A stretch of 64,000 nucleotides of DNA from NCBI GenBank assembly GCA_902727895.1, contig CACVAP010000053.1:1-64000 (forward strand), written 5' to 3'. Shown in pieces: positions 23,767 through 33,018 of the stretch (position 1 is its first letter; each line of letters opens with the position of its first letter). The notes beneath the pieces are model-generated. The model was not told the DNA's origin. It saw only the letters and a program-made list of their open reading frames with translations, and ran no database searches. A program made the translations under genes and the position numbers. The stretch is from an uncultured Sulfurovum sp. (GTDB lineage Bacteria; Campylobacterota; Campylobacteria; Campylobacterales; Sulfurovaceae).

Positions 23767-24291
23767 ATGACAAGGTTTAAAGTAAATAGGATGGTGACTC
23801 AGAGTCAGAATTTTTTAGAGATGGCTAAAGAACGATTAATGTTAGAAGAGTTTTTAGTTGAGAATGTAGATATCAACGCTCGTGATACTGATGGACAAAA
23901 TGCTCTTTTTTGGGCAATTAGAACATCACATAAACATAATATTGATTTACTTTTAAGTCATAACATTAGCCTTATGGTTAAACCTACTTATCATGCTCTT
24001 TTTCATGCCATTCAAAGTAATAATTTAGAGACTTTTTCTTTACTTCTAGAGTTAGTTAAAGATATTAAGATGAGAAATGACAAGGGTCAAACACTCTTAA
24101 TGACAGCAATTGAACAGGAGAATACCATTATGGTACAATATCTCCTTAATCATGGTATTAACCTCTACGCTAAAGATATGAATGGGTTAACAGCGCTAGA
24201 CTATATTAAAAAAGTTAAAAACCGTATGATTTATGACTTAGTTTACTATAAGAGTATATATCAAAAAGAGCAACTTAAAAAGGTCGCTTAG
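23767..24291 (+). CDS. ankyrin-repeat protein
   Basis: 174 residues with about four ankyrin-type repeats; DTDGQNALFWAIRTSHKHNI, DKGQTLLMTAIEQENTIMV and DMNGLTALDYIKKVKNRMIY show the TPL/TAL helix pattern. There is no signal peptide, so it should act in the cytosol as a binding scaffold. The partner is unknown. The ribosome binding site is TAGGAG. Its end overlaps the stop of the convergent Fur-family gene by four bases. Confidence 0.8.
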   Translation: MTRFKVNRMVTQSQNFLEMAKERLMLEEFLVENVDINARDTDGQNALFWAIRTSHKHNIDLLLSHNISLMVKPTYHALFHAIQSNNLETFSLLLELVKDIKMRNDKGQTLLMTAIEQENTIMVQYLLNHGINLYAKDMNGLTALDYIKKVKNRMIYDLVYYKSIYQKEQLKKVA

Positions 24292-24725
24292 TGATTCTCT
24301 TGACAATGATCACATACGCCTCTAAGGGTCATATTAATGCTGTTGACTTTATGTTGTTTTGCCATGTTGGAGAAATAAAGGGCATCCTCAAATTTTAATT
24401 CACCCAAACAGAAAACTTGATGACATGTTTCACATTCGAAATGAGGATGAGATTTTGCTCCTTGGTGAATGTACTCATATTGGGCTACTCCATCACTGCC
24501 TAAAAACTCTTGGACAATATCTTTCTCATTAAACTGTCGTAGTGATCGGTAGACTGTTGCAAGGTTTACAGAGGTCATTTTTGAACATGCTTCATAGAGT
24601 GTATTCACATCTTTAGGCGCGTGACTGCTTTTTAAAATATGGAGTAAAATACTTTTAGCTTTAGTATTTTTAATCCCTTTTAGATTGAGTTCTTCTTTAA
24701 TTTCATTACTATTCATGTAAGCCAT
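24288..24725 (-). CDS. Fur-family regulator, probable Zur
   Basis: 145 residues: an N-terminal winged helix (SVNLATVYRSLRQF is the recognition helix region) and a C-terminal dimer domain with two CxxC pairs (CETCHQVFC and CDHCQ) for structural zinc, plus HPHFEC. Family members repress metal genes when loaded with metal. It is the last gene of a set GTPase - znuA - regulator, which favours zinc (Zur), but Fur, PerR and Zur cannot be told apart safely by eye. A second Fur-family gene lies at 32653. Confidence 0.85.
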   Translation of the reverse strand: MAYMNSNEIKEELNLKGIKNTKAKSILLHILKSSHAPKDVNTLYEACSKMTSVNLATVYRSLRQFNEKDIVQEFLGSDGVAQYEYIHQGAKSHPHFECETCHQVFCLGELKFEDALYFSNMAKQHKVNSINMTLRGVCDHCQENH

Positions 24726-24761: not shown

Positions 24762-26053
24762 TTAGTTGTTATTGGCAATTGCTTTTGCTTTTTTAATTAA
24801 ATTTTCTGACCAATCTTTGGCTAACGGAGTCTCTTTGATAACTTTTATGTTTAATGCATGAGCAATGGTTTTGGCACTTTTATCTGAAAACTCTTGTTGT
24901 GTAAATATTGCTTTTATACCTTGTTGTCGCGCTTCTTTTATAATTCTTTGTAACATTTTTGGCTTGGGTTCTTTTCCATCTACTTCAACAGAGAGTTGGG
25001 TTAGTCCATACTCTTTAGCAAAGTATCCCCACGATGGATGAAATACCATAAACTGAGAGCCTAGTGGTAGTGCTGTAAGAATTTCTTTTATTGTTTTATC
25101 TGTTTGCTCAATTTCTTCTAGAAAGTTCTCATAGTTTTCTTTGTAATAGCTAGCGTTTTCAGTATCAAGTTTAACGAAGGTATTATAAATATTTTTTGCC
25201 ATAATTTTGACATTTGAGGGTGCTGTCCAAGTATGAGGATCTACTCCTCCATGATGGTGGTGATGAGTGCCATCCTTGGGATCTGACACTATGGGTTCAA
25301 TATCTTTATATGTCAAATCTTTTAGAAAATGCTCTTTATCTTCAAATTCAAAAGGCATATGTTCTGTAAAAAAAGATAATTTCCACTCTGTTTAATATCA
25401 AGTGTAAAAATTGTTTGATCTTTTGTTTCATCAAAAGTTAATTCATAGAAACTTTGCTGAGCATTTAAGATGTCACCATCTCTTACTATACTTGCTTCAG
25501 TTGAATAGAATAGGGCTTCGGCACTTTTTTTGTATTTGACTATTTCTTCGTTATTTTTTCCTGTAACTTGTAGCATTAAAAATTTCATTTTTGGATCAGC
25601 ATATTTTCCTGAAACTTTTGCAAAACTCCAATGGTATGTTCCTTTTTTTAATTTAAAGATACCTGCCCATTCATAAAGTATGTTTTGTGTACTTTTCTTT
25701 TTTTCAAAAGAGTAACTGGGTTTTGCTAATGGTATAAAGTTGACTCCTTTTGTCATATCAGAAATTTTCATCGTTTGATTATGATAAGCAAACTTGTCCA
25801 GCCAAGCATTTTCAAACTCAACCTTGATGGGAAAGTAGACATCTGCTTTAGAGAGTGCTACCATTTGAGAGGGTTTGGGTGAATAAGTATGTGGGTCACT
25901 TCCTGGTTTAACCATGGTGGTGACATGGACTTGGTCTCCACCAATTTTCTCAACAAAGGTTTGTTGTGGCAAAATACTTACGACAGCATTGATATTCGCA
26001 TAGAGAAAGCCATTTAGCCCAATCATGCTACTAAAAACTATTTTCTTGAACAT
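24762..26053 (-). pseudogene. znuA: zinc ABC transporter binding protein ZnuA, frameshifted, with inserted domain
   Basis: The two track ORFs (25322-26053 and 24762-25358) are one gene broken by a single-base shift at a seven-T run. With one T more the frame joins as GNYLFFTEHMPFEFE and gives 430 residues. The N-terminal part has a signal peptide and the ZnuA start (VVSILPQQTFVEKIGGD, PGSDPHTYSP); the second has HHHHHGG, DPHTWTAP, FMVFHPSWGYFAKEYGL and FTQQEFS. ZnuA proteins are normally about 300 residues. The excess is a block of about 130 residues, from SYSFEKKKS to the His-rich loop, sitting where the His loop usually is. No znuB or znuC is nearby. The break may be real decay, phase variation or a sequencing error. 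Confidence 0.85.
25368..25374 (-). other. seven-T homopolymer at the znuA frameshift
   Basis: On the coding strand the run reads CTTTTTTTACAG. Eight T, or five T, would restore the znuA frame. Runs of this length are prone to slippage in cells and to errors in assembly. Confidence 0.7.
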
Positions 26054-26068
26054 ATAAAACCTATCTTT

Positions 26069-27100
26069 TTAGTCATGCTGATGCTCATGTGTGTGACTAT
26101 GGTCATGATGATGGTGTTCATGATCGTGGTCTTCGTGTTCATGTGTCTCTTGAATAATGGTTAAATAGTCAAATTTACTAGACAATAACTCTAAATCCCT
26201 ATGCGTATCTTCTCCAATAAAAACAAGAGCAGACTCTCCAGTGTAATCACTTAACTCTTCAAAAGATACATTTCCAAAAGCGTAATTCACAATAAGTGGT
26301 GTTGGAACATCCTCTACTTTGACCATCCCTTTAACACGATAAATATTTTTTGGGAGTGCTTTTAAAAGTAAATCTAGATCATTAAAGTCAATCTTTTTAT
26401 TAAACTTCCCAACTTTTCTGTCTATGGCATCATGATGATGGTCGTGTTCCTGACCATCAGTGACCAGACCTATAATCTCATCAATTTGGTACACGCCTTC
26501 AAAGACATCCTTAGGAAGAACACCTTGTTCTGCATGATGAAGAAAATAGTTGTTGAAAACTTTTTTACCTGTCATAGTATTCTTAATGTCATGTCTCTCT
26601 TTATAGGTGATAATATCTATTTGTGCTTGGTTAAGCTCTTCTTCCGTAACCAAGTCAGTTTTATTAAGAACAATAATATTTGAACCACCTACTTGGTATT
26701 TGGCTGTAGGGTTATGCATATATGAATCATAGTTTTTGGCATCAACAACACAAATAACACCTTCAACAGATATTCCAAGGTTTTGAAGTGAAAGAAAGAC
26801 AGGGAAAGGTTCTGCTGCTCCAGAAGTCTCTACAAAGAGAATGTCAGGCTTGTACTTGTTAGTAATCTCAATGACACCACCTTCAAACTCTTGGGACATT
26901 TCACAACAAATACACCCTTCTGAAATCTCTATGACATCACTATGAACATTTTTTAAAATGTTTTGGTCAACACCTATTTCACCAAATTCGTTAACAATGA
27001 TGGCGACTTTTTTATCTGTAAAATGGTTTTTGATTGTATTGGTCAGCATACTACTTTTACCGACACCTAAAAATCCTGTAATAATGAATGAATGAATCAT
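26069..27100 (-). CDS. COG0523 (CobW/ZigA-type) GTPase, probable zinc chaperone
   Basis: 343 residues. Walker A is GFLGVGKS (9-16), the metal motif CxCC is at 63-66 (EGCICCEMS), the G4 motif is in IIVLNKTDLV, and the tail is a His-rich run (HEHEDHDHEHHHHDHSH and on). COG0523 GTPases insert or deliver metals, often zinc under starvation. The CobW C-terminal domain is at about 240-320. It is the first gene of the GTPase-znuA-regulator operon. A perfect 12-bp inverted repeat lies 39 bases before its start, strongly suggesting metal-dependent repression. Confidence 0.9.
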   Translation of the reverse strand: MIHSFIITGFLGVGKSSMLTNTIKNHFTDKKVAIIVNEFGEIGVDQNILKNVHSDVIEISEGCICCEMSQEFEGGVIEITNKYKPDILFVETSGAAEPFPVFLSLQNLGISVEGVICVVDAKNYDSYMHNPTAKYQVGGSNIIVLNKTDLVTEEELNQAQIDIITYKERHDIKNTMTGKKVFNNYFLHHAEQGVLPKDVFEGVYQIDEIIGLVTDGQEHDHHHDAIDRKVGKFNKKIDFNDLDLLLKALPKNIYRVKGMVKVEDVPTPLIVNYAFGNVSFEELSDYTGESALVFIGEDTHRDLELLSSKFDYLTIIQETHEHEDHDHEHHHHDHSHTHEHQHD

Positions 27101-27138: not shown

Positions 27139-27171
27139 TATCATAAATGCGATTAATTTGCATTTATGATA
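27139..27171. promoter_or_regulatory. predicted Zur-type operator shared by divergent metal genes
   Basis: A perfect 12-bp inverted repeat (TATCATAAATGC and GCATTTATGATA) with a nine-base spacer lies in the gap between the COG0523 GTPase and the RibA-like gene. Its core AAATGC-N9-GCATTT recurs at 27797-27817 and, less perfectly, at 32598-32618 before the second Fur-family gene. The position allows control of both divergent genes. Confidence 0.7.
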
Positions 27172-27213
27172 TGGAGTGATATACTTTTAAAATTCATCAT
27201 GAAGGAACAAAAA

Positions 27214-27798
27214 ATGAATATTTTTAAAAAAATAAATAATTACGTTGATACAAAAAACGAAATAATACATTCTGAGATGGCAACTGTCTTTACAAAATAT
27301 GGTAAGTTTCAGATGAAAGCCTATAAGGATGACCATCAGGAATATATTGCAATTATGAATCAAAAGTTTTTTGATTTGGAGAGACCAGTTGTTTATATTC
27401 ACTTTGATGTACAGCATTCTGAGATGGATCACGATATGCACTGTTACTGTGCCAATCAAGTTGAATTGGCTTTAAAGATGATACAGAAATCAGGGGGCTT
27501 AGTGATTTATTCTTCTCGTGAAGATGCAAGTATTGATAATCTCTTAGAAGACATAAATACACGAAGACTTGATGAAGGTAATGCTATTAGAGGTAAGAGT
27601 AAAATAAAGTTTTCTGTAAAAGAAACAATAGTTTATCCTTCTTTGGCTTTTATATTAAGTGACTTAAAACTGTCAAATGTTAATTTAATTACTAATGATG
27701 AAAAAGTTATTGATATTGTGGAGTTATTGGGTATTAATATTTTAAGGATAGAACCTAATATCTCTTTTGACTATGGTAATAAAAAAGTAGCAAATTAA
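27214..27798 (+). CDS. divergent GTP cyclohydrolase II-like protein
   Basis: 194 residues from the chosen ATG (AAGGA nine bases upstream); the track start at 27166 lies inside the palindrome. The order of segments follows RibA: VVYIHFDVQHSEM, CYCANQVELALKMI, GGLVIYSSRE, LITNDEKVIDIVELLGINI. However, the first zinc Cys of the RibA motif (HSEC) is Met, the loop to CxC is short, and the RQEGRGIG segment is replaced by SSREDASIDN. It may be a paralogue with altered metal need or a different reaction. It diverges from the zinc GTPase and shares its operator-like palindrome, so it is probably induced by metal shortage. A role in riboflavin synthesis is not supported by its neighbours. Confidence 0.7.
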   Translation: MNIFKKINNYVDTKNEIIHSEMATVFTKYGKFQMKAYKDDHQEYIAIMNQKFFDLERPVVYIHFDVQHSEMDHDMHCYCANQVELALKMIQKSGGLVIYSSREDASIDNLLEDINTRRLDEGNAIRGKSKIKFSVKETIVYPSLAFILSDLKLSNVNLITNDEKVIDIVELLGINILRIEPNISFDYGNKKVAN

Positions 27799-27820
27799 AT
27801 GCAAAATATTCGCATTTAAT
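27794..27820. terminator. AT-rich hairpin between convergent genes, also operator-like
   Basis: ATTAAATGC and GCATTTAAT are perfect 9-bp arms around nine bases and overlap the stop of the RibA-like gene; the plus strand continues TTTTTA, so it can act as an intrinsic terminator. The geometry (AAATGC-N9-GCATTT) is the same as in the predicted operator at 27139-27171. Confidence 0.5.
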
Positions 27821-27832
27821 TTTTAAAAATGT

Positions 27833-29245
27833 TTAGCCTGCCAAAAGTAATACGAAACCAAGCCCAAAAATAAAGAGCAGACTTCCATAGTCTAAAACTT
27901 TGCGTAGTTTGTTATTGTTTAAAGTATTTTTTCTTACTTTTAAAGAGAGATAAGCAGCAATGAAAATAATAAGACTCATCCCAATACTCATAAAAATAGC
28001 AGAGAGTAACCCCACCCAATAAACTCCTAAACTAAGTGTAAATATAAAGATGGTTACAGTTCCTGGACAAGGGATGATACCAGCAGAGAGAATAACTCCA
28101 ATGTCTGTTGACTGGCTTTGACATGCACCACAGCCACAACTGTGTTCATGGGGTATGTCAGGTTTGTTTTGTGACCAAGGAGAGAGTTGTGGTTTTACTT
28201 TAGGTCGTTTAGGAATACGTTTATAGAGTAAATAAAGTGCAATTATGATGATAACGACAGCACTCACTTTGGTGGTCATGGTTTCAATGTTACTAAAATA
28301 ATTCTCCATGTAGGTGTTTAACAGATAATAAATCGTAAAGGTTAAAAGAAAGGCAGAGAAAGTATGCACCACACCAATGAGAGCAGAGACAGAAAAAGCT
28401 TTGGCTACAGAGCGATTGTTCCCTAGAAAATAAGCAGCAACCAGACTTTTCCCATGTCCTGGTCCTATGGCATGGATGACTCCATAGAGTAGCGAAAAGA
28501 AGAGCAACCAAAAGTAAGAGCTAGGACTTTGATTTTCTTTAATGTCTTCTAGAAGCACCACCACTTTCTCTTTAGTCTGTGTGAGTTGTTGACTGAGCCA
28601 TCCTAAAGCACCTTTTAATTCAGTTACTTTTGGATTTTGAGTACCAAGAGACTCTAATGAGCTTAACGGTGTTTGTTGATTAGGTGTGAGTGCAAAAGAA
28701 GCACTGTTTTCTAAGAGGGCTGTGCTGTTTTTATCTTGTTCTAAAGCGTGTATGACTTTATCTATTTTAAAAGAGAAAAAAGAGGCTTTATCATAAAAAG
28801 TTAAATAGAGTAGGTGCTCTTCTGTAGGTGTTAGATTGGTATCTAAAGTATAGGAGAAGTGTAATACATTGTTTGTAAAAGCAGTTTTTTCATTACTTGG
28901 CTTATACTTTAAATAGTCTATATCTTGATATTCTTTGTTAGAAGGGACATATTTTATGTAGCTTAGATGCTGTTCTATTTCAAGATACTCCATAATCATT
29001 TGATGGATATTTTCTAACTCATTTGGGTCTAAGGTTTTATTGCCATTTGTATCATGATCTAAGAGTGCTTCAGCACTAAACTTTTTGCTAAAGTCCCAAT
29101 TGATATCCAAGGTCATTATATCGTTGGTATGTGATTCATGAACAGAGACTTTAATGAACTGTGTAGCGTCTCCACAGAGTGTACAAGCATGGAGCCAACT
29201 GAAACTACTAATGATTAAAGCTAAGGTTATATAGAGTTTTTTCAT
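27833..29245 (-). CDS. NicO-type metal transporter with N-terminal periplasmic DUF1007-like domain
   Basis: 470 residues. A signal peptide (SFSWLHAC) leads to a periplasmic domain of about 200 residues that includes an EF-hand-like loop (DTNGNKTLDPNE, about 65-76). The C-terminal half has six or so helices with HAIGPGHGKSLVAAYFLG and the SAGIIPCPGT motif of the NicO/RcnA nickel-cobalt family, and a Cys-rich cytosolic loop (HEHSCGCGACQS). It may export or import Ni, Co or another divalent metal. A Fur-box-like sequence lies about 90 bases upstream. It converges on the RibA-like gene. Confidence 0.85.
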   Translation of the reverse strand: MKKLYITLALIISSFSWLHACTLCGDATQFIKVSVHESHTNDIMTLDINWDFSKKFSAEALLDHDTNGNKTLDPNELENIHQMIMEYLEIEQHLSYIKYVPSNKEYQDIDYLKYKPSNEKTAFTNNVLHFSYTLDTNLTPTEEHLLYLTFYDKASFFSFKIDKVIHALEQDKNSTALLENSASFALTPNQQTPLSSLESLGTQNPKVTELKGALGWLSQQLTQTKEKVVVLLEDIKENQSPSSYFWLLFFSLLYGVIHAIGPGHGKSLVAAYFLGNNRSVAKAFSVSALIGVVHTFSAFLLTFTIYYLLNTYMENYFSNIETMTTKVSAVVIIIIALYLLYKRIPKRPKVKPQLSPWSQNKPDIPHEHSCGCGACQSQSTDIGVILSAGIIPCPGTVTIFIFTLSLGVYWVGLLSAIFMSIGMSLIIFIAAYLSLKVRKNTLNNNKLRKVLDYGSLLFIFGLGFVLLLAG

Positions 29246-29538: not shown

Positions 29539-31617
29539 TTAATATTGGTATTCAACACCAGCAATAATTGCTCGACCAGGTAAAGGTGCCGTTTCTTTTA
29601 GGAATGATATATGATTTCTAGCAATATCATCGGTTAGATTTTCACCTTTAAGCCAGTAGTTTAGTTTGCTTTTTCCAATTTTTTGTTCGTAGTTCATGGA
29701 CGCGTTTAGGAATTTATATCCATTTGTTTCTGTCTCATTGACTGCTGTCTTACGGGCTTTGTCAACCCATTTGTAACTTACTTTATTGGTTAAGTTTTTG
29801 TATTGGTGTTCAACACTTGCTGTCGCATTATAAGGAGCCATACGTGGAATGTTTCCACCTCCATTGAGTTCACCTCTTAGCATGTTGAGTTGTAAGGTAT
29901 TGGTAAATTTATGTTTACCAAGTGTTGCTTTATAGCTCTCTTCAATTCCTAATCCATAAATCTTAGCACTCACACCACTCATTTTCCATACAGGACTTAA
30001 ATGAAATGGATCAATAACAGCCACACCATTTTGTGCTAACGGTGATTGATAGATATAATTATAAAAGTTGTAATAATAAGCACTAAGTTTAGAGTTAAAG
30101 TTTTCATTGTGAGCATAAAGCATATTCATATCGAGGTTCACTGAACGTTCTTTCTCTAAGTTCCTGTCTCCTAAAATATAACTCTCGGTTGCATGGTGAA
30201 AACCATTCCAGAGTAACTCTTGAGATGAAGGAAGACGTTCCATATAAGCCAATGAAGCTTGTGTTGTAAATTTTTCACTCCATGTATGCCACCAACCCAG
30301 TGAAAGACTAAGTGCAATGTCATTTTCATCACTGTAGTAATCAGCATCAATGGCTGTAGGCATTAGCCATGTCTCTTGAATATTTGAGCTGTCAGGGCTT
30401 AACTTTCGTACGACTGTGTTAACAGCAAGGCTAAGTTCATCTTCATCATAATAACGTTTGAGATTCACACCCATTTGAAGTTTTTGTTCTTTGGTATTGG
30501 GCATTGGGTGACCATGAGAGTAGGCAATGCCTCTGTCGTTGTAGTAGTTTTGTGTTGAAAAACCATCTTCTGCACTCGTTCTAGCAGGAGTTGTAAATTC
30601 ACTACATCCACCATGTTCATGACAGACTTTGAGTTCATTTTCAAGAAGTTCTGCACGAAAGTTTCCATCCATCTCATTAACAGTAAAGTCAAAAGCTGTA
30701 CTTAAACTTTGTTGTTGTTGATCAAAGGCACCATCGTATCTTAAACCTTCTCTTTCAAAGTGTTTGTAGTCACTAAGCTGATATTCGGTTTGAACATTTT
30801 TGAGTTTACCCAGTTCTTTATTATGGATGACAATCCCATAACGTTTTTGTTCCATTACGATGTCAGTTCGTTCAGTGGTGCTATTGGGAATACCATAATT
30901 TTTATCCATGGTATCAGCATAGACTTTTACCACAGTATTGTCTGTGGCTTGCCATCCTAGAACACCATGAAGTTGTTCACTAGAAGTGTCTGAGTTTTGA
31001 ATTTCTTGACCATCACTAGAGTAATTTCCTGCTTCATTTTTATAGTAGTTTAGGTAGCCTAAGTATTTATCATTTCCATATTCTGCTTTGAGGTTGGCTG
31101 TTCCTTTCCCTGTGTCAGAGTTAGTTGAAAGAGAAGCATTTGCACCAAAGCCCTTAGGAAGTTTTGCTTCATGCTCTTCACCTAGAGTACGAACAACACC
31201 ACCACTGTATGAACCATAGAGTAAAGAAGCTGGTCCTTTGACAAGTTCCAAGTGTTCAGCTACTTTAGCATTTAGTCCAACGGCGTGATCTTGACTCATT
31301 GCTGAAAGGTCATTGAGCATAATTCCACCTTGAGCAATACCAACACGGTAGCCTTCCATTCCATTTACGGTTGGTCGTCCAACAGCTGAACCATAAGTTG
31401 CACTTTCTACACCCAGTTCACCTGAGAGATAGTCTCCCAGTGTTTCCCCAGCACCTTTACGTTTACTAAGGGCCTTAACATTGTGAATGTAGCAATAAGA
31501 GAGCGATTCTTCTTGTTTACTTGCATCGTCTTCTATGGTAATGTCTCCAAGTAGTTCCTCTGCATAGAGGGAACTACTTACTAATAATAGAAGGGTAAGT
31601 AGACTAAGTTTAGTCAT
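29539..31617 (-). CDS. TonB-dependent outer-membrane receptor, ZnuD-like
   Basis: About 692 residues from the chosen start. The signal peptide is MTKLSLLTLLLLVSSSLYAE. The plug domain follows (GETLGDYLSGELGVESATYG, VNGMEGYRVGIAQGGIMLND, VKGPASLLYG) and then a 22-strand barrel ending in the aromatic GRAIIAGVEYQY. A His/Cys loop (CHEHGGCSE) may catch metal. The plug is close to ZnuD-type zinc receptors as I remember them. The track start at 31650 is longer; I chose the ATG that overlaps the lipoprotein stop by eight bases (ATGACTAA). It transports a metal or metal complex driven by TonB; zinc is favoured by the context. Confidence 0.85.
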   Translation of the reverse strand: MTKLSLLTLLLLVSSSLYAEELLGDITIEDDASKQEESLSYCYIHNVKALSKRKGAGETLGDYLSGELGVESATYGSAVGRPTVNGMEGYRVGIAQGGIMLNDLSAMSQDHAVGLNAKVAEHLELVKGPASLLYGSYSGGVVRTLGEEHEAKLPKGFGANASLSTNSDTGKGTANLKAEYGNDKYLGYLNYYKNEAGNYSSDGQEIQNSDTSSEQLHGVLGWQATDNTVVKVYADTMDKNYGIPNSTTERTDIVMEQKRYGIVIHNKELGKLKNVQTEYQLSDYKHFEREGLRYDGAFDQQQQSLSTAFDFTVNEMDGNFRAELLENELKVCHEHGGCSEFTTPARTSAEDGFSTQNYYNDRGIAYSHGHPMPNTKEQKLQMGVNLKRYYDEDELSLAVNTVVRKLSPDSSNIQETWLMPTAIDADYYSDENDIALSLSLGWWHTWSEKFTTQASLAYMERLPSSQELLWNGFHHATESYILGDRNLEKERSVNLDMNMLYAHNENFNSKLSAYYYNFYNYIYQSPLAQNGVAVIDPFHLSPVWKMSGVSAKIYGLGIEESYKATLGKHKFTNTLQLNMLRGELNGGGNIPRMAPYNATASVEHQYKNLTNKVSYKWVDKARKTAVNETETNGYKFLNASMNYEQKIGKSKLNYWLKGENLTDDIARNHISFLKETAPLPGRAIIAGVEYQY

Positions 31618-32548
31618 GGTCATGATCGTCTTCATCATCCGATTCACCAATACCTACGAATTCTGTTGGGCTAAAGTTTGTTGGTAAAAACTTGCTTCCT
31701 GTCCATTTACTATGTTGGTGGAAATCTTCACCATGAGAATCAACTAAATAGAGTGTTTGTGATTCTGCAGAAAAGATATATACTCCATAGTCACTTGCTT
31801 TAACAATTGAACTTCTGTCTTCTTCACATGTTGAAACACCTTCAAGTGCAAAAGCTGTTCCCTCTTGTTTGAGTGCTTCTTCTCCTTCTTCTTCATGGTA
31901 AACATAAACTTTTCCAGACTTTGTTAATGCAATGTGTGCTGCTTCTTCATGTTCCTCTTCTGTTGTACTTTCCTCTTCATGAGCATGCTCAAATACATAG
32001 AAGTTACATAGCTCTTCAGTACTTGGAAGTGCTTCGGCAATTTCTTCTCTAACCTCTTCTTGTTCCTTAAGATGTGTATTTAGTGAAACCAATGCAGCTT
32101 TTTTACCATCACTTGATACTTCTGGGTCAAATTCCTCGTTAGAGTGTGAAGCAAAAGTATTTACGTTGTCTTCTTCATGAAAATGACCTAAGTACTGAAA
32201 GTCATTGTAAGTTAAGTCACCATTATTGATATCAAAGTCATAATTTAACATTACAATCTTTTGGTCAACACCAGCTGCTGTTTCATGATCCCATCGAATT
32301 AGTTTTCCAGTTTTACCTGTCATGTTATAAGTTGCATTGTCATCATTATTCATATCTGTGTTTGTATCGCTTGTGGTATTATAAAGATACTGGTCTGAAC
32401 TTTCATTGTCAAAAAAGATGAATGTTTTTTCATCTGGTAAGTCAAGAGAACTTGTTAAGTCAACTGATGTAGATGTGCTAGAACTGCTTCCACAACCTAC
32501 TAGAAGAAGTGTTGTAAGTGATGCTACTGCGAAGTTTGATAATTTCAT
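31610..32548 (-). CDS. acidic, His-rich lipoprotein linked to the TonB receptor
   Basis: 312 residues from the ATG preceded by AAAGGA; the track adds 19 upstream residues. The lipobox is LLVGC, followed by a Ser/Thr linker. The body is acidic with many His-Glu runs (FEHAHEEESTTEEEHEEAAH, YHEEEGEEA) and a DDEDDHDHD tail. It could be a surface or periplasmic metal-binding or sensing protein feeding the receptor. No known family recognised. It is the first gene of a two-gene operon, divergent from the second Fur-family gene, with an operator-like palindrome in between. Confidence 0.75.
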   Translation of the reverse strand: MKLSNFAVASLTTLLLVGCGSSSSTSTSVDLTSSLDLPDEKTFIFFDNESSDQYLYNTTSDTNTDMNNDDNATYNMTGKTGKLIRWDHETAAGVDQKIVMLNYDFDINNGDLTYNDFQYLGHFHEEDNVNTFASHSNEEFDPEVSSDGKKAALVSLNTHLKEQEEVREEIAEALPSTEELCNFYVFEHAHEEESTTEEEHEEAAHIALTKSGKVYVYHEEEGEEALKQEGTAFALEGVSTCEEDRSSIVKASDYGVYIFSAESQTLYLVDSHGEDFHQHSKWTGSKFLPTNFSPTEFVGIGESDDEDDHDHD

Positions 32549-32597
32549 ATTTTTCCTTTGTTTTAATGAATTAGCGAATAATATAGAGATTTTATTT

Positions 32598-32618
32598 AAA
32601 TGCAACTTAGTCGCATAA
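32598..32618. promoter_or_regulatory. predicted Zur-type operator before lipoprotein/receptor operon
   Basis: AAATGC and GCATAA flank nine bases, with inner symmetry (CAAC-TTA-GTCG), so it matches the core of the operators at 27139-27171. It lies 50 bases before the lipoprotein start and just upstream of the -10 of the Fur-family gene, allowing control of both. Confidence 0.6.
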
Positions 32619-32640
32619 CTTCAAGTAAGTCTAGATAGTG

Positions 32641-32646
32641 TATAAT
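32641..32646 (+). promoter_or_regulatory. -10 box directly before the second Fur-family gene
   Basis: TATAAT ends seven bases before the ATG at 32653 and no ribosome binding site is seen, so the transcript is probably leaderless or nearly so. Confidence 0.5.
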
Positions 32647-32652
32647 CAATCT

Positions 32653-33018
32653 ATGAAATTAGAAGAACTTATTAAGAATAAAAAACTAAAATTCACACCT
32701 GCTCGTCAAATGCTTTTAGAGATTTTTTCTAAGGCATCACAGCCTTTGGCATATGAAGATATTAAGTCTCAGATAACCATGGACAAAGCTACGTTTTATA
32801 GGAATGTTACAACGTTTGAGGCATCAGGAATTTTGAATGGTTTTGAGTCTAATGACAAGAAAAGATACTATGAAATGACAGACAAGCAACATGCTCATTT
32901 TATCTGTTCAGAATGTCATAATGTGGAGTGTCTTGATGAGGAACTTCAGTTTACGTTGAAAGATTATAAAGTTGATAATATTATTGTTTATGGTGTCTGC
33001 AAAAAGTGTTGTGCTTAG
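32653..33018 (+). CDS. second Fur-family regulator, probable Zur
   Basis: 121 residues from the chosen ATG; the track start (GTG at 32638) includes the -10 box and is unlikely. The protein has the winged helix (DKATFYRNVTTFEASGIL), the HAHFIC metal segment and two CxxC pairs (CSECHNVEC, CKKCC). It is shorter than typical Fur (about 150). It faces the lipoprotein/TonB receptor operon across a palindrome, which suggests autoregulation and control of that operon. Which of the two Fur-family proteins reads the AAATGC-N9-GCATTT sites is open. Confidence 0.83.
   Translation: MKLEELIKNKKLKFTPARQMLLEIFSKASQPLAYEDIKSQITMDKATFYRNVTTFEASGILNGFESNDKKRYYEMTDKQHAHFICSECHNVECLDEELQFTLKDYKVDNIIVYGVCKKCCA

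Follow-up and report, generated by a model that had tools for sequence, protein, structure and literature searches.

Does a gene whose product resembles GTP cyclohydrolase II (RibA), and which lies next to a GTPase gene among genes for zinc uptake, still encode a zinc enzyme, or has it been turned to another use? This question is raised by a reading frame of 194 residues at positions 27214–27798 (plus strand) of the 64,000-nucleotide stretch of DNA analysed here, referred to below as the window. We call its product pseudo-RibA.

Identity and predicted fold of pseudo-RibA

The pseudo-RibA frame is directly preceded by an AAGGA ribosome site. Its preliminary description as a GTP cyclohydrolase II-like paralogue is borne out by a match to the Pfam domain PF00925 (E 4.6e-17, above the Pfam cut-off) and by fold matches; on the RibA equivalog profile it scores 66.5 bits, far below the curated cut-off of 205.85. 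The closest relatives in the PDB by sequence are the GTP cyclohydrolases II of H. pylori (4rl4) and E. coli (2bz0), and the same two structures are the top Foldseek matches (probability 1.00, E 1.9e-9) of an AlphaFold model, built as a monomer with a mean pLDDT of 64. RibBX ranks seventh, and pseudo-RibA is a free protein with no fusion to RibB. The core strands and helices of the model mostly have pLDDT values of 80–90, and the old active-site loops (residues 67–80, 103–109 and 112–138) fall below 50, which is insufficient to judge the metal site.

Loss of the RibA active site

Although 4rl4 and 2bz0 are the best matches by both sequence and fold, the zinc triad and the GTP-binding and catalytic residues are not conserved in pseudo-RibA. 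Seven pseudo-RibA orthologues were compared with 51 intact relatives in the numbering of E. coli RibA, in which we take Cys54, Cys65 and Cys67 to be the zinc triad and Tyr105 and Arg128 to be catalytic. Arg49, Cys54, Arg90, Tyr105 and Lys154 are conserved in 51 of 51 intact relatives. All seven pseudo-RibAs have lost the zinc ligand Cys54 (Val66 in the window protein), Arg90, Lys154 and the C-terminal GHLL tail, and carry Tyr in place of Arg49 (Tyr61 in the window protein); Tyr105 is lost in six of them and is Arg in the window protein. Ile occupies the Arg128 column of the window protein, in a loop of uncertain alignment, and SREDASID replaces the RQEGRNIG loop. The zinc triad of the window protein is incomplete, Cys65 and Cys67 being kept as Cys77 and Cys79. 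An N-terminal extension, helical in the AlphaFold model, and one inserted residue, Asp108, are common to the whole group.

These results amend the preliminary description in several respects. The losses of the RQEGRGIG/RQEGRNIG loop and of the first zinc Cys stand, but the Met assigned to the latter position does not, the residue being Val66; the register that set HSEM over HSEC was discarded, as the orthologues (YIHSESHTCD...CYC) and a profile alignment place His63 on His51. The changes at Arg49, Arg90, Tyr105 and Lys154 had been overlooked, as had the missing C-terminal tail and the helix gained at the N terminus. A working, metal-altered RibA, as then proposed, is unlikely, because all seven orthologues have lost substrate-binding and catalytic residues in addition to a metal ligand; to judge from sequence, these losses argue against a protein that does the job of RibA without zinc or with less of it.

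It had also been proposed to look for a canonical ribA in the genome, and one was found elsewhere in it (G000:C96). Pseudo-RibA is therefore not the sole GTP cyclohydrolase II of this organism, and the other genomes checked likewise hold a canonical RibA in addition to it. That pseudo-RibA is simply a normal, functional RibA in which some residues are unusual, as its PF00925 match might suggest, is scarcely credible in view of the residue losses, a score so far under the equivalog cut-offs and the canonical enzyme elsewhere.

Orthologues, phylogeny and selection

The six orthologues of the window protein come from Sulfurovum-like and other Epsilonproteobacteria MAGs, with identities to it of 79% (L045), 49% (L046) and about 38% (L047 and L048); the others are in L095 and in L094, which shares its contig with L089. 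The pseudo-RibAs thus far found belong to a group of marine bacteria that oxidise sulfur. All seven loci derive from MAGs or draft genomes, one with 10% contamination, and searching the whole class with a stringent cut-off added no further members. In a tree of 58 proteins the seven form one clade (support 100/100), whose long branches make its internal branching and its precise point of attachment uncertain. Among the intact relatives compared by BLASTP, the closest to pseudo-RibA is a HisI-RibA fusion from L094, at 43% identity, whereas the canonical RibA of its own genome is only 28% identical; on these comparisons the clade is nearest to RibA copies from zinc loci. An origin from the X domain of the genome's own RibBX-like protein (C46) was discarded, BLASTP giving no useful match between the two.

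Between the window and L045, the dN/dS of pseudo-RibA is 0.12/0.74 = 0.17, compared with about 0.09 for the GTPase and Zur-like genes, a ratio that speaks for purifying selection and led us to discard a pseudogene. Taken together with the residue losses in all seven proteins, it suggests that catalysis has most likely been dropped and the scaffold kept. The long branches and fast loops would also fit a decaying copy heading for loss, but seven open frames in diverged genomes, the ratio of 0.17 and a promoter and operator kept at all seven loci make this very improbable. An in-frame stop reported for L016 proved to be merely a shorter C-terminus.

Might the pocket have acquired another function? 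The Cys65/Cys67 pair is retained in six of the seven pseudo-RibAs, five have a new Cys three residues past the lost Cys54, and the residues that are invariant in this group specifically include Tyr61 and Asp108, so that a relocated Cys/His loop could bind a metal, zinc or otherwise, and the pocket could accept a different substrate. In the window protein the new-Cys position is occupied by Ser, amid three His and several Asp and Glu residues. Other observations speak against an enzyme with an altered metal or a new activity. The former active-site loops show the lowest conservation in the protein and are modelled with low confidence; codons 121–150, which encode the old active-site loop, are the only ones that look unconstrained, their dN equalling or exceeding dS; the presumed phosphate-binding Arg and Lys residues have been lost; and L094 lacks both Cys65 and Cys67. 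We regard this alternative as unlikely.

Operator and promoter

A 33-bp operator-like palindrome, TATCATAAATGC-N9-GCATTTATGATA (27139–27171), lies between the pseudo-RibA gene and the divergent GTPase gene and is common to both, as had been noted earlier; its arms form a perfect 12-bp inverted repeat (27139–27150 and 27160–27171), and an inverted repeat is kept in this setting at all seven loci. In L048 a pyrC gene stands between operator and pseudo-RibA gene. TAAATGC-N9-GCATTTA occurs twice in the window as against zero times in 300 simulated 64-kb windows, and the 2.96-Mb genome has just two exact matches to AAATGC-N9-GCATTT, at 27145–27165 and 27797–27817, flanking the pseudo-RibA gene. The second of these palindromes (TAAATGC-N9-GCATTTA, 27796–27818) overlaps the stop codon of pseudo-RibA, and no gene begins downstream of it in the window; an equivalent site precedes the Zur/Fur gene in L045 and the intact RibA in L048, and the window copy is probably an operator left over after rearrangement. 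A third operator-like site, with core ATGCAACTTAGTCGCAT (32597–32619), matches exactly the motif derived from the loci and has a lipoprotein/TonB-receptor unit on one side and a Fur-family gene on the other. Apart from these three zinc-locus sites, a relaxed motif gives mostly background in this genome.

A search of 175 related genomes with the full motif returned ten exact occurrences, compared with zero for the reversed control, and nine of the ten are at zinc loci. The palindrome sites include znuABC/Fur loci with no RibA (L096 and L097), a TonB-receptor locus (L098) and intact RibA copies, and a further znuABC/Fur case was found separately (L103). One exact palindrome, at L099:310-332 (G173), falls between genes with no evident link to zinc (AAA-type and ankyrin-like, by eye).

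The pseudo-RibA promoter (27157–27185, plus strand) has a -35-like TTTGCA within the palindrome and an extended -10 element, TGATATACT, with TATACT at 27180–27185; a TGnTATAMT box follows the palindrome by 12–14 nt at all seven loci. The palindrome covers the -35 region, a layout suited to repression, and from the genomic context we infer that the protein that binds it is Zur.

The zinc locus and its relatives

The gene had been placed in a zinc-starvation locus, and its neighbours (ZnuA, the COG0523 GTPase and Fur-family genes), together with the distribution of the palindrome, bear this out. A Fur-family regulator (32638–33018, plus strand) is the candidate Zur; in L096, L097 and L103 its orthologues adjoin znuABC and a copy of the palindrome. 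The following genes are all on the minus strand: a second Fur-family regulator (24288–24725); the zinc-binding protein ZnuA, in a broken reading frame whose first part (25322–26053) is overlapped by the second (24762–25358); a NicO/DUF1007 metal transporter (27833–29245), convergent to the pseudo-RibA gene; a TonB-dependent outer-membrane receptor (29539–31650), a candidate zinc receptor; and a His/Glu-rich lipoprotein-like protein (31610–32605), which is paired with the TonB receptor in relatives too. The break in ZnuA, near 25340–25360 within a T-rich run, reflects a genuine frameshift or else a mistake in the assembly; L045 has an intact copy of 416 residues. ZnuA also has an insert of about 120 residues relative to the Pfam family.

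In relatives, intact RibA genes occupy similar settings. The zinc island of L048 comprises GTPase, DksA, PyrC, degenerate RibA, intact RibA and HisI; L055 has the order znuC-znuB-ribA-nicO, and in L103 a fur-ribA pair adjoins znuABC. In L094 and L095 the GTPase is followed by a HisI-RibA fusion and then a TonB receptor; such fusions also occur in L100 and in L101, there after znuCB. HisI, PyrC and DksA are listed as Zur-linked paralogues (PMC2770081), and ribA is known to be Zur-regulated in Vibrio cholerae and V. parahaemolyticus (PMC8248653, PMC6103462, PMC9817125). Since their neighbours are Zur-linked paralogues, and the Vibrio ribA is itself Zur-linked, the intact RibA copies can be read as spare enzymes. 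The earlier suggestion of a spare zinc enzyme thus holds for the intact RibA in the zinc loci of relatives (L048, L051, L052, L055 and L103) but not for the window protein. An intact RibA accompanies pseudo-RibA at three of the seven loci and is absent from the other four.

The fusions, in which the RibA part is intact, were located at L094:9946-10854, L095:10088-10990, L100:5163-6074 and L101:4822-5781, and those of L094, L095 and L101 sit in zinc loci; HisI is phosphoribosyl-AMP cyclohydrolase. In L046 the pseudo-RibA gene is adjoined by a gene for a His-rich protein of 117 residues with no Pfam family (L046:6326-6679, minus strand), and a similar protein is encoded at L094:13895-14251.

Pairing with the COG0523 GTPase

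The neighbour across the palindrome (26069–27100, minus strand) is a COG0523 GTPase of the CobW/YciC type, with PF02492 (E 8.5e-43) and PF07683 domains, a CxCC motif (GCICC) and a His-rich tail, which agrees with its earlier description as a zinc-type GTPase. COG0523 proteins of this bacterial family are of two types: type A, associated with neither palindrome nor RibA, and type B, which is found in the zinc locus and includes the window protein. Type-B GTPases form a clade with 100/100 support and are the partners of pseudo-RibA at all seven loci, and in a search of 175 genomes the five that encode a type-B GTPase were the same five that encode pseudo-RibA. In nearly all genomes checked (L109-L130), type A directly follows genes for 2-oxoacid:ferredoxin oxidoreductase-like subunits, with which it is possibly linked.

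Comparison with known systems

Like the Vibrio ribA, pseudo-RibA is a GTP cyclohydrolase II homologue within a zinc-starvation regulon. The two are set apart by description, the Vibrio protein being reported as a GTP cyclohydrolase II, whereas pseudo-RibA is without the active site; the true counterparts of the Vibrio gene are the intact RibA of L048, L051, L052, L055 and L103 and the HisI-RibA fusions. Pseudo-RibA would then be a degenerate, probably non-enzymatic offshoot of a spare zinc-locus RibA. With the Zur-controlled spares that accompany COG0523 (FolE2, PyrC2, HisI2, DksA2 and HemB2; PMC2770081) it has in common its descent as a zinc-enzyme paralogue, a COG0523 neighbour and a zinc-type operator, but in those proteins the activity is kept or replaced, and in pseudo-RibA it has most likely been lost. 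PMC2770081 makes no mention of RibA.

A third comparison is with RibBX, the X domain of which is GTP cyclohydrolase II-like, lacks that activity and is reported to regulate RibB in Shewanella (PMC10012899). The X domain (PDB 6mnz, Acinetobacter baumannii) has the GTP cyclohydrolase II fold with no activity, as is predicted for pseudo-RibA, but it is fused to RibB, whereas pseudo-RibA is free, is the product of a separate loss and belongs to a zinc locus.

Proposed role of pseudo-RibA

We give a probability of roughly 0.5 to the reading that pseudo-RibA is a zinc-starvation protein acting as an accessory to the GTPase or to RibA. It would have the fold of GTP cyclohydrolase II, would not hydrolyse GTP and would be produced under zinc scarcity. 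As long as zinc is present, a Zur-type repressor would occupy the palindrome, covering the -35 region, and hold both genes off; with zinc absent, the GTPase and pseudo-RibA would both be made. Pseudo-RibA would then serve as a non-catalytic accessory, most likely together with the GTPase, either as a RibA-shaped adaptor or as a small zinc carrier using Cys77, Cys79 and the preceding loop of His, Asp and Cys residues, and scarce zinc would be steered to enzymes that depend on it, for example RibA. As L094 lacks both Cys65 and Cys67, not all pseudo-RibAs can require zinc binding. The GTPase is favoured as partner because this pairing is exclusive, whereas the zinc site, the substrate pocket and the RibA neighbour are each dispensable. 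A more specific form, in which a RibA-derived pseudoenzyme induced by zinc starvation became the dedicated partner of a COG0523 metallochaperone, as an adaptor or zinc relay taken from its likely client, is put forward tentatively, at somewhat less than even odds; the link, drawn from genomic pairing in seven MAG loci, could reflect merely a shared promoter.

The main rival to the GTPase partnership is regulation of RibA: pseudo-RibA would pair with RibA or RibBX and alter riboflavin synthesis in zinc shortage. The retained fold and lost catalysis suit such a role, a pairing with RibA is conceivable given that GTP cyclohydrolase II is a dimer, the X domain that is reported to regulate its attached RibB in Shewanella provides a precedent (PMC10012899), and a canonical RibA was always present in the genomes checked. 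The pseudo-RibA genes, however, have no riboflavin-gene neighbours save the intact zinc-locus RibA at three of the seven loci, which weakens the case for a fixed RibA partner, and the protein shows no sequence closeness to its genome's own RibBX. We consider a riboflavin regulator possible but rather doubtful.

The clients of COG0523 GTPases, and how they are recognised, are a long-standing question. Under the favoured GTPase partnership, a strictly co-inherited pair of COG0523 protein and degenerate zinc enzyme would name GTP cyclohydrolase II as a candidate client, since in some relatives the intact enzyme, too, is encoded at these loci, and pseudo-RibA as a possible helper. The intact copies, with the HisI-RibA fusions, extend the zinc-starvation RibA from Vibrio to Campylobacterota.

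Other RibA-type proteins in the genome

The RibBX-like protein at C46 (L004:1489-2523, minus strand) consists of RibB with a degenerate RibA domain, so that the genome holds two independent degenerate RibA domains. At C51 a large protein of 775 residues is encoded (L002:919-3246, minus strand), the central part of which is a RibA domain (PF00925) that looks intact; its start is glycosyltransferase-like and its end YbiA/NADAR-like, both as judged by eye.
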